64,000 bases of DNA from Flavobacteriales bacterium (GTDB taxonomy: Bacteria > Bacteroidota > Bacteroidia > CAIKAF01), in the NCBI GenBank assembly GCA_025451235.1, contig JANWKT010000008.1:124001-188000 (forward strand), given 5' to 3'. Below, piece by piece: positions 23,320 through 34,522 of this stretch (position 1 is the stretch's first letter; each line of letters opens with the position of its first letter). Made by a program: the position numbers and the translations under genes. The notes under the pieces are model-generated. The model was not told the origin of the DNA and did no database searches. It was given only the letters and a program-made list of their open reading frames with translations.

Positions 23320-24291
23320 ATGCAGGATCTGAAAGACATATCTATTGTTATTCCACTTTATAATGAAGAAGAATCGTTGCCAGAATTAGTCACCTGGATC
23401 GAAAAAGTAATGTTGGAAAATAAATACTCCTACGAGATTGTGATGGTGGATGATGGAAGTAATGACCGGAGTTGGGAGGTGATCCAGTCTCTTCACTTAA
23501 AAAATCCGAATATTAAAGCCATTAGCTTCCGCAGGAATTATGGAAAATCTGCCGGCTTAAATGTTGGGTTTGAACATGCCGAAGGCAAAGTGGTGATTAC
23601 TTTGGACGCTGACCTGCAGGACAGTCCTGACGAAATCCCCGGGTTGTATAAGATGATCACAGAGGAGGGATATGACATTGTAAGCGGATGGAAAAAGAAA
23701 AGACATGATCCTATCACCAAGACCATTCCTACAAAAATTTATAACGGTGTTACACGAAGAATGTCGGGCATTAAGTTGCATGATATGAATTGCGGACTGA
23801 AAGCATATAGGTATGAGGTAATAAAAAATATAGAGGTATATGGTGAAATGCATCGCTATATACCGGTGATCGCCAAATGGGCCGGGTTTAAAAAAATAGG
23901 TGAAAAGGTAGTTCAGCATCAGGCACGTAAATTTGGTAAGACCAAGTTTGGAGGACTGGAAAGGTTTATACGTGGCCCCCTGGATCTTTTATCTATCATG
24001 TTTGTTTCGAAGTTTGGGAAAAGACCCATGCATTTTTTTGGCAGTTGGGGTACCGTTATGTTTTTATTGGGATTTATCATCGTGCTGATCATGGCGGGCC
24101 AAAAATTGTTGGCAGAGTATAACGGTCATCGAATGCCTAAGATTGCTGAAAATCCTTTGTTCTATGTAGCCCTTGTGCTGGCTATTATTGGTGTTCAATT
24201 ATTTCTTACGGGTTTTATAGCAGAGTTGGTTTCCAGGAACGCCCCTGACAAAAACTTATATAGGATAAAACAGAAGCTAGGGTCTGAATAG
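23320..24291 (+). CDS. Family 2 glycosyltransferase with C-terminal membrane helices (GtrB/DPM type)
   Basis: 323 residues. The GT-A domain covers residues 1-230: ISIVIPLYNEEESLPEL at 8-24, VMVDDGSNDRSWE with the first Asp pair near 43, LDADLQDSPDEIP near 96 (DxD-like metal site) and a QHQARKFGKTKF block near 200. Two transmembrane helices follow (about 243-263 and 280-302). This layout is that of enzymes that move glucose or another sugar from a nucleotide sugar to a polyprenyl phosphate on the inner membrane. Another glycosyltransferase follows beyond the inserted GxxExxY element. Confidence 0.92.
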   Translation: MQDLKDISIVIPLYNEEESLPELVTWIEKVMLENKYSYEIVMVDDGSNDRSWEVIQSLHLKNPNIKAISFRRNYGKSAGLNVGFEHAEGKVVITLDADLQDSPDEIPGLYKMITEEGYDIVSGWKKKRHDPITKTIPTKIYNGVTRRMSGIKLHDMNCGLKAYRYEVIKNIEVYGEMHRYIPVIAKWAGFKKIGEKVVQHQARKFGKTKFGGLERFIRGPLDLLSIMFVSKFGKRPMHFFGSWGTVMFLLGFIIVLIMAGQKLLAEYNGHRMPKIAENPLFYVALVLAIIGVQLFLTGFIAELVSRNAPDKNLYRIKQKLGSE

Positions 24292-24297
24292 TTACAA

Positions 24298-24333
24298 CGA
24301 AGTACGAACTTATACGAACCTACGAAGTACGAA
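24298..24333 (+). repeat. Left terminal inverted repeat of the GxxExxY element
   Basis: Built from short units: CGAAGTACGAAC, TATACGAACC, TACGAAGTACGAA. It pairs with 24784-24819 with two mismatches (positions 13 and 30 of the repeat). It begins 6 nt after the stop codon of the upstream glycosyltransferase. Confidence 0.85.
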
Positions 24334-24385
24334 AAAACTAACGAACAATTTGAATTGACACGAATCTACGAAGAGGTACTAGAAA

Positions 24386-24790
24386 ATGAAACCACCTTTA
24401 AAACGAAATGATTTAGTTTATCCAGAATTAAGTTATGAGATTATTGGTTGTGCCTATGAGGTTTGGGATGAGTTGGGACCGGGGCATTTGGAAAAAGTTT
24501 ATCAAAAATCACTTGGTATAGCTTTTGGGATTAGAAAAATAGCTTTTGAGGAACAAATACCATACCAGTTAAAGTTTAAAAATGAAATTGTTGGAAAAGG
24601 AATTTTAGATTTTCTGGTTGATAAAAAAGTAATAGTAGAATTAAAGAAGGATAACCTTTTTTCAAAATCACATATAGAACAGGTTTTGAATTATCTCAAA
24701 TTATCAAAATGTAAGTTGGCCATTCTTATTAATTTTACAAAGGAAGGCATTAAATTTAAAAGAATTGTAAATATCAACACCGATTCGTAG
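24386..24790 (+). CDS. GxxExxY protein, PD-(D/E)XK nuclease-like
   Basis: 134 residues. The name-giving motif is G33-HLE36-KVY39 in the first half. A PD-(D/E)XK-like core follows: LDFLVDKKVIVELK, with Asp75, Glu85 and Lys87 in the D...ExK arrangement, then a helix SHIEQVLNYLKLS with the common Q. The family (PDDEXK_3) is widespread, about 125 residues long, with no proven activity. Here the gene stands alone inside 36-bp inverted repeats; its TAG stop lies within the right repeat. This supports a role in the upkeep or movement of the element, which is inference. Confidence 0.9.
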   Translation: MKPPLKRNDLVYPELSYEIIGCAYEVWDELGPGHLEKVYQKSLGIAFGIRKIAFEEQIPYQLKFKNEIVGKGILDFLVDKKVIVELKKDNLFSKSHIEQVLNYLKLSKCKLAILINFTKEGIKFKRIVNINTDS

Positions 24791-24819
24791 TTCGTAGGTT
24801 CGTATATGTTCGTACTTCG
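24784..24819 (-). repeat. Right terminal inverted repeat of the GxxExxY element
   Basis: Inverted copy of 24298-24333 (34 of 36). It contains the stop codon of the GxxExxY gene and the ATG at 24806 that gives the longest reading of the following glycosyltransferase. Confidence 0.85.
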
Positions 24820-32698: not shown

Positions 32699-33826
32699 TC
32701 AGGTTTTCTCCATTATGGAGATCAATACTTTTTTTTCCATTTCCCAATTAAGTTCATATGCGGCAAGAGGTATGTTCGATTTCATGGCATGGTATTTTTC
32801 CTGATCAGCAAACATCTCTTCAATAGTTGTGGCAATCGACTCAGGGGTTACTTCCGGCACAATGGCTCCTACCTGGTAGGTATCCACTATTTTTCTTAGT
32901 TCCACAAGGTTCGAAGAGATAACAGGTATGCCGCATTGGATATAATCGAAAATTTTATTGGGTAGGCTAAAGCGATAATTGATATTGGTGTCTTTGTCCA
33001 ATGTTACACCGGCATCGGCATTCATGGTATATTGGACCAACACTGAATAAGGTTGTTTGCCGATAAAAGTCACTTTGTCTTCCATCGAAGCATCTTTTAC
33101 CATTCTTTTTAAGGTGTTCAGCACATCCCCGCTTCCTACGATCAACAAATGAAAATGGGCAGGTAACAGCTTAAATGCTTCAACTAATTCCTCCGATCCT
33201 CTATCCACATTAATCCCACTACCTTGTAAAATAATGATGTGTTTATCATCGGGCAGATTCAAATCTCTTCGTGTAACGGATCTTTCCAATGTATTTTTAC
33301 GGGGTACATTCCGGATCACTTCAAATTTTTTGTTATATTTTTCTTGAAATAGCTGTGCAATGCTTTCGTTCACCGTAATACAATAGTGTAGTTTGGGAAC
33401 GATCCATCCCTCTATTTTCTTCCATACGCTTTTGGCAAATGCATTATGTTCAAGTTCTGGTACCTCAGTAAAATATTCATGGCTGTCAAATATCAGCTTT
33501 ACCCTTTTTAAACGACTTGCACAATAATTGGCCAATAGGGTATCCAGGTCATTGCTCCAAAGGATGTCTGCTTTTTTAAAAACAAGCAGCCAAAACAATC
33601 TCCAGTTAAAAAAAGCATAGAACAAAGCGCCTTTTTTAAAGATAAGATTCATTCTGATGAATTGATAGGGCACCTCGGGCATGGGAAGAGAAGCAGGGAG
33701 TTTTCGTCCCACCAATAAAACCTCGTAACCCAGTTGGTGTAGTTCGTTACATGTACGACTTACTCTTTGATCGGTTACCAGATCGTTGATTACGCTAACA
33801 ATGATCCTTTTCTTTTTTTCTAGCAT
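32699..33826 (-). CDS. Family 4-type glycosyltransferase
   Basis: 375 residues with a GT-B layout. The N-terminal lobe starts IIVSVINDLVTDQRVSRTCNELHQLG, and the C-terminal nucleotide-sugar lobe shows IILQGSGINVDRGSEELVEAF, FIGKQPYSVLVQY and the donor-binding block SLPNKIFDYIQCGIPVISSN near residue 290. No transmembrane helix. Such enzymes add sugars to surface polysaccharide or lipid intermediates in the cytoplasm. Gene is isolated, with the empty inverted repeat at 33892 upstream of its start. Confidence 0.9.
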   Translation of the reverse strand: MLEKKKRIIVSVINDLVTDQRVSRTCNELHQLGYEVLLVGRKLPASLPMPEVPYQFIRMNLIFKKGALFYAFFNWRLFWLLVFKKADILWSNDLDTLLANYCASRLKRVKLIFDSHEYFTEVPELEHNAFAKSVWKKIEGWIVPKLHYCITVNESIAQLFQEKYNKKFEVIRNVPRKNTLERSVTRRDLNLPDDKHIIILQGSGINVDRGSEELVEAFKLLPAHFHLLIVGSGDVLNTLKRMVKDASMEDKVTFIGKQPYSVLVQYTMNADAGVTLDKDTNINYRFSLPNKIFDYIQCGIPVISSNLVELRKIVDTYQVGAIVPEVTPESIATTIEEMFADQEKYHAMKSNIPLAAYELNWEMEKKVLISIMEKT

Positions 33827-33891
33827 TAATGGAATAAAGATAATATTTTTTGGGGCACCTTTCCTGCTATCCGCTATATCTTTTTACCCAC

Positions 33892-33976
33892 CGAAGTACG
33901 AAGAAAACCATACGAACCTACGAAATAAGAACCTCTCTAGCGGTGGTTCGTAGGTTCGTAAAAAGTTCGTACCTCG
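33892..33976. repeat. Empty (solo) copy of the GxxExxY-element inverted repeats
   Basis: 85 bp. Left arm 33892-33924 starts CGAAGTACGAA and ends TACGAACCTACGAA; right arm 33947-33976 is its inverse (10 of 11 and 14 of 14 positions in the two blocks). Both blocks match the 36-bp ends of the element at 24298-24819, but only 22 bp lie between the arms and there is no gene. It may be a deletion derivative or a MITE-like copy moved in trans. It sits between two leftward genes. Confidence 0.8.
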
Positions 33977-33993
33977 ATGAGATAAAAGGATGC

Positions 33994-34023
33994 CCGTCCG
34001 TATCGAACGAAACGTTCGGACGG
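33994..34023. terminator. GC-rich hairpin after the 34031 gene, possible terminator
   Basis: CCGTCCG (33994-34000) pairs with CGGACGG (34017-34023), and inside it CGAACG (34004-34009) pairs with CGTTCG (34013-34018), so two alternative stems are possible. On the minus strand a short T-rich tract (CCTTTTATC) follows. It could end the leftward gene at 34031. Confidence 0.4.
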
Positions 34024-34030
34024 ACCGCTT

Positions 34031-34522
34031 CTATCCGGGGTGCTTAAACGAACTTAATTCTTCTAATTTATCCTGATAGTCATATTGGAGATCTTCGTGT
34101 AAAGTAGCTAACGATTTTTTAATCTTTTCTATTTGACGTTGATAGAGGTTTGTAAGTGCATTGCTGGTATGAATGGAAACTTTGGCATTCTTTAAATGCA
34201 AACAATAAAATATGAGTAGTTCAACCTCCGTTTGTTTTAAGCCTGAATATCTAATATACTTATTAATGATCCTCAAGATCTTTCGCATACTTTTTTTTGC
34301 AAAATAAATATTGGTATAGTTGATCTCTTTGAAATGTTGATCCACTTCCTTTTTAATATTTTCAATATAGGTTTCTTCATGCTCCGCCTCATATAGTAAG
34401 TAGGTCAGCAGTTCTTTGTTTTCCTTTTTGTATTTGGCCAGCCGGATACAAAGCTCTGCTACTTCAACTGACGACATGTTCATCAGGTCTTTTTTTAGGT
34501 CACTTATGCTTGCCGGTTTCAT
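34031..34522 (-). CDS. Conserved hypothetical, all-helical cytoplasmic protein
   Basis: 163 residues, no signal peptide, almost entirely charged amphipathic helix (AELCIRLAKYKKENKELLTYLLYEAEHEE). This opening is one I know from a widely conserved but unnamed Bacteroidota protein. No catalytic residues stand out. It is a single gene with 79 bp to the next upstream gene. Function unknown. Confidence 0.72.
   Translation of the reverse strand: MKPASISDLKKDLMNMSSVEVAELCIRLAKYKKENKELLTYLLYEAEHEETYIENIKKEVDQHFKEINYTNIYFAKKSMRKILRIINKYIRYSGLKQTEVELLIFYCLHLKNAKVSIHTSNALTNLYQRQIEKIKKSLATLHEDLQYDYQDKLEELSSFKHPG

Follow-up and report, generated by a model that had tools for sequence, protein, structure and literature searches.

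Gene-less TACGAA hairpins that share their arms with a GxxExxY nuclease-family element: a candidate family of mobile hairpins without a transposase

We found that the hairpin at 33892–33976 of the window (the whole stretch of 64,000 nucleotides analyzed) has arms in common with an element 9 kb away whose loop holds a GxxExxY gene, and that it makes up the apical stem of a Flavo-1-like RNA, in which a short loop ordinarily occupies that place. Our preferred reading, to which we give a probability of roughly 55%, assigns the hairpin, as a gene-less form, to a single mobile, dispersed family lacking a transposase; the protein encoded in the loop would act on the arrays of gene-less and gene-bearing copies alike, and hairpin tips would be tolerated or favored as insertion sites. 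The first-pass annotation of this DNA had recognized the relationship between the two sites; it missed the Flavo-1-type RNA hairpin of the window copy and the use of the same architecture by S23 genes.

Arms, insertion and copy number of the TACGAA family

On re-inspection, the 85 bases at 33892–33976 are a real, imperfect inverted repeat of TACGAA units, and the distance of 22 bp given earlier for the space between the arms is exact (Table 1). The inner block TACGAACCTACGAA is identical in both arms (33911–33924 on the plus strand, 33947–33960 on the minus strand), and the outer block CGAAGTACGAA at 33892–33902 (+) returns with one mismatch, as CGAGGTACGAA, at 33966–33976 (−). The blocks recur in the GxxExxY element at 24298, 24313 and 24323 (+) and at 24791 and 24809 (−), with three to four copies of the TACGAA unit per arm. 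The 5–6 block matches observed in the window, against 0.23–0.41 expected by chance, were reached by no shuffle. Hairpin and element do share the blocks, as had been claimed, except for the mismatch in the right outer block and for the spacers, which measure 8 and 5 nt in the gene-less copy versus 4 and 4 nt in the gene-bearing one. The DNA fold of the hairpin beats 200 of 200 shuffles (z −5.0), and its RNA fold likewise gives z −5.0. The hairpin lies between a glycosyltransferase gene and an ORF at 34031–34522; this ORF (minus strand, 163 aa) has no Pfam or NCBIfam match and was not found beside the orthologous glycosyltransferase gene in relatives.

Table 1. Positions of the hairpin, the gene-bearing element, the RNA frame and the S23 elements
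Feature	Position	Strand	Evidence
Gene-less TACGAA-unit hairpin	33892..33976	none	Block matches; DNA fold z −5.0
Left arm: CGAAGTACGAA + 8-nt spacer GAAAACCA + TACGAACCTACGAA	33892..33924	+	
Center, 22 bp, between exact arm blocks	33925..33946	none	
Right arm: CGAGGTACGAA + 5-nt spacer + TACGAACCTACGAA, read on −	33947..33976	−	
GxxExxY element, TACGAA-unit arms 24298–24333 and 24784–24819	24298..24819	+	Shared blocks; empty site in 10 relatives
GxxExxY gene, 134 aa, PD-(D/E)XK nuclease family (TIGR04256, PF13366)	24386..24790	+	
3' half of Flavo-1-like frame, ...GATATAGCGGATAGCAGG on − strand	33863..33886	−	
5' half of Flavo-1-like frame, CCCCGGATAGAAGCGG ... GCATCCTTTT on − strand	33984..34040	−	
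Second small hairpin inside 5' frame half, CCGTCCGTATCGAACG...CGGACGGA	33994..34024	none	
Six S23 elements (L379–L381, L383–L385)	G000 C13:208770, C37:47174, C16:19663, C14:262371, C25:55880, C19:35925		

The gene for the 134-aa GxxExxY protein is the only one between the arms of the element, and no transposase is present. The catalytic residues (the E of GxxExxY, D75 and E85-x-K87) are invariant in all eight sequences compared; a search of solved structures with the protein sequence returned marginal Csn2 matches only (E 0.03). To our knowledge, GxxExxY is a commonly annotated protein without a known function, and the literature on it is almost nil.

Comparison with relatives, in which the genes on either side are contiguous, shows the gene-bearing element to be an insertion. 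The element is flanked by two family-2 glycosyltransferase genes, one at 23320–24291 and one with a probable true start at TTG 24848, and in all 10 relatives having both together, which are diverged from the window in sequence, the two are adjacent. The gap from the stop codon to the first aligned residue is −22 to +43 nt in these relatives versus 538 nt in the window, and by eye no target-site duplication was obvious against such diverged sites. A second case comes from another phylum: the GxxExxY gene of Sphingomonas parapaucimobilis, with arms TTCACGCGAAGGCGCGAGGACGCGAAG and CGTCTTCGCGGCTTCGCGTGAA, separates fabD from fabG, two genes that are about 30 nt apart in S. paeninsulae. A search for near-identical empty sites in viral contigs and plasmids found none, and the one useful relative was in Sphingomonas. 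In the window, the mechanically called ORF of the downstream glycosyltransferase begins at ATG 24806, inside the element's right arm. Relatives indicate that the TTG is probably the older start, and the insertion may therefore have provided a new start codon.

The blocks are not unique to the window. In the 4.28-Mb genome (G000 below), the 14-mer TACGAACCTACGAA has 34 exact occurrences and its reversed control 0; TACGAAMYTACGAA occurs 51 times. Reading the pattern-match sites, we counted about 28 gene-less hairpins of roughly 65–110 bp, an approximate number since the census consisted of pattern searches and the stretches around matches and misses decayed copies, versus 2 copies whose loop holds a GxxExxY gene (the window element and one on contig C20 near 38.25–38.79 kb). 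Most copies of the blocks are short gene-less hairpins, then, and 22 of the 28 overlap no open frame of at least 100 codons. Across 17 aligned gene-less copies, the TACGAA units hardly vary. In the majority of these copies, one arm has a spacer of 8 nt (TAAAAYCA or a sequence like it) and the other a shorter one. No compensatory change was seen at any pair of the family's consensus stem, so the fold is without independent support there.

Because their spacers are asymmetric and their orientation within Flavo-1 is fixed, the gene-less copies look like a subtype or lineage of their own and not like recent deletions of the present gene-bearing copies. This limits the description of the hairpin as a MITE-like derivative. 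The likeness to MITEs consists in the many short gene-less copies whose terminal inverted repeats are common to a rarer gene-bearing copy in the same genome; the differences are the missing transposase and the build of the arms as unit arrays. The related proposal of an autonomous element paired with a nonautonomous one is partly supported by the shared arms, the copy numbers, the insertion and the recurrence of the pairing in other genomes, but the gene-bearing partner encodes a predicted nuclease and is only putatively autonomous.

The Flavo-1 frame around the hairpins

Flavo-1 is a catalogued RNA that is still unexplained. The sequences just outside the window hairpin and several of its sister hairpins form a conserved frame, which Rfam identifies as Flavo-1 (RF01705) at four loci (L041, L058, L061 and L064), and one of these, L041, is a sister copy with a TACGAA hairpin that scores 52.9 bits in the model. 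The same model gave no match up to E 1 over 33700–34150 of the window, probably because a second small hairpin at 33994–34024 interrupts the 5' half, but both frame halves are present. This second hairpin, different from the TACGAA one, breaks the 5' half at the same point in several copies, L074 and L075 among them.

Both frame halves accompany 10 of the 28 TACGAA hairpins, the window copy included, and at least one half accompanies 14 of the 28, with about 8% expected per site. Within Flavo-1, the TACGAA hairpin extends the tip as an added part; it is found without this RNA too, at least half of the copies having no frame. Wherever the arms of framed copies could be classified (9/9), the arm with the 8-nt spacer is beside the GATATAGCG half; the insertion was therefore oriented, or hairpin and frame were copied jointly. 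In the sister genome G001, many Flavo-1 copies have a short tip loop, and the tips in G000 often carry a long palindrome from one of several unrelated families. In G001, a Flavo-1-like half with another hairpin precedes the orthologous glycosyltransferase gene. The tip palindromes of G000 at L053, L054, L056, L058, L061, L064, L069 and L081 include GTTGTTGG arrays, AGATGTCAG arrays, AACAAGA arrays, GACGGGCAATTGCCCGTC and CATTTCGACTGGAGCG.

Unit-array arms around GxxExxY and S23 genes

With 150-bp flanks, we identified an inverted repeat (score ≥28) around 38 of 51 GxxExxY genes, nearly all of them from Bacteroidota genomes, in comparison with none of 30 glycosyltransferase genes used as controls and 0.4% of flanks after shuffling; about a quarter of the GxxExxY loci had none by this test. 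The arms are arrays of a 6–7-nt unit, mostly at 7–13-nt spacing, and the unit varies by locus (TACGAA, ACGGAT, CACAGAG, CGCAAAG, CACAGAT, ACAGGAT and others). Similarity of the proteins is correlated with similarity of the arms over the 38 loci (Mantel rho 0.41, 0 of 2000 permutations), and the correlation persists when only pairs below 0.5 similarity are considered (rho 0.27, 0 of 1000 permutations). Two proteins of the MAG nzgw117 that are 76–77% identical to the window protein come with the TACGAA unit too. This covariation would fit the arms being recognized, as the first-pass annotation had suggested of the ends, and it is from such comparisons that we infer recognition by the nuclease; linked inheritance can be another source of the pattern. 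Gene-less and gene-bearing hairpins of one unit coexist in G000, G020, G022 and G024.

The GxxExxY copies at G020:C23:37682–38009 and G022:C71:20263–20614 are broken by stops or by splits of the frame, which is what decaying element copies would be expected to show. A contig catalogued as viral (L330, IMGVR_UViG_3300005058_000014) also carries a GxxExxY gene enclosed by unit-array arms; it seems to lie between an hsdM-like and an hsdS-like gene, both identified by eye only. Our search of the literature on GxxExxY, PF13366 and such repeats found nothing on the unit-array architecture.

The same architecture surrounds a second kind of cargo. Unit-array inverted repeats enclose 21 of 31 S23/four-helix-bundle genes (PF05635), and six of the seven S23 genes in G000 lie inside them (Table 1). 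The element at C13:208770 shares its unit with four gene-less hairpins at Flavo-1 tips (L053, L054, L065 and L079), which it matches with scores of 30–35 versus ≤21 for every other element. The hairpin in L069 in turn matches the element at C37:47174 (score 39 versus ≤18). S23 is already known as the protein of rRNA intervening sequences (IVSs) and as a relative of Avd, and its gene is occasionally found in cas loci; the IVSs of 23S rRNA took the place of small tetraloops (PMC4990558). The TACGAA hairpins resemble IVSs with an S23 ORF in the long stem made by inverted ends, in the loop with or without a gene and in occupying the place of a small hairpin loop in a structured RNA, here the Flavo-1 tip. 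They differ in that the host RNA is Flavo-1-like or lacking and not 23S rRNA, that the cargo is a PD-(D/E)XK nuclease gene and not S23, and that the arms, which are dispersed in about 30 copies, consist of short-unit arrays.

A proposed mechanism and its alternatives

Under the preferred reading, the GxxExxY protein would bind the iterated units, perhaps on the palindrome extruded as a hairpin, and would cut either at these units or in a target loop. New sites could then receive copies of the hairpin, gene included or not, through repair or joining, and the gene-less copies would be mobilized in trans. By entering the tip of a hairpin already present, a copy would only extend the stem and spare the host RNA, which would be the reason for the build-up of hairpins in Flavo-1. 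We infer these steps, and the direction of evolution that they imply, from the comparisons above.

The regular position of GxxExxY and S23 genes within unit-array inverted repeats that have gene-less relatives in the same genome suggests a role for both proteins as enzymes of a selfish hairpin element. This could account for the origin of many dispersed palindromes in Bacteroidota and for the inserts at the tips of rRNA and Flavo-1 hairpins, and it points to a widespread, barely described kind of mobile hairpin. More tentatively, and with odds of about one in three, there may be a general class of transposase-less mobile hairpins in which arrays of a 6–7-nt unit are read by the element's own small protein, either a GxxExxY PD-(D/E)XK nuclease or an S23/Avd-like four-helix bundle, gene-less copies are moved in trans and hairpin tips are favored. 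If true, such a class would connect the dispersed palindromes of bacteria with rRNA intervening sequences and with Flavo-1 RNA in its extended forms.

The main rival, which we regard as unlikely yet worth weighing, puts the hairpins first: the dispersed palindromes were amplified in some other way, and the GxxExxY gene is a passenger resembling a homing endonuclease gene, which entered hairpins carrying its unit through the shared arms by break repair. The large excess of gene-less over gene-bearing copies and the distinct spacer layout of the former would agree with this, as would the occurrence of two unrelated cargo genes in one architecture. Group I insertions in rRNA, with ORF-less and ORF-bearing forms at one site, offer a precedent (PMC11270868). 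A small nuclease gene in a selfish insert that exists with and without the ORF is indeed what homing elements and the TACGAA family have in common, but the TACGAA elements are at many unrelated sites and not at one allelic site, and we found no allelic pair of sites with and without the gene. Furthermore, the gene-bearing element went between abutting genes as a whole, arms included, which simple homing into a hairpin already present does not require. We know of no homing activity shown for nucleases of the GxxExxY type.

It is improbable, at perhaps half the weight of that rival, that the hairpin is merely a variable apical stem of the Flavo-1 RNA, be it a host sRNA or a cis element, and has no mobile history. 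Frame halves on both sides of the window copy and nine others, their fixed orientation and the strong RNA fold all agree with a stem of this RNA; frameless copies make up half or more of the TACGAA hairpins, however, two copies carry a gene, and the tips hold several unrelated palindromes in G000 and a short loop in many G001 copies.

An origin as a REP/REPIN-like palindrome moved by a Y1 (RAYT, TnpA-REP) transposase is very unlikely. The TACGAA palindromes are dispersed and intergenic as REPs are, and the genome has five Y1_Tnp genes (L368–L372), but none of the five is flanked by TACGAA hairpins. The repeats found at these genes are short GC-rich palindromes, two with a GTAG end, and a strong inverted repeat of any sort is present at 4 of 20 Y1_Tnp genes and is then of another kind. 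We rejected this origin since the Y1_Tnp genes of the genome itself go with other repeats and unit-array inverted repeats are rare at such genes. At least two of the five are flanked by GC-rich palindromes such as GACTCCAGAGGGGTCGTAG.

Least probable of all is an ordinary intrinsic terminator, to which a strong intergenic hairpin and a predicted terminator-like site at 34011–33993 (−) with the tail CATCCTTTTA might point, for that site, the only one found by the scan, is the small frame hairpin next to the TACGAA hairpin, which itself has T-rich sequence before and A-rich sequence after it in both directions, and two loci have identical arms around a protein gene.
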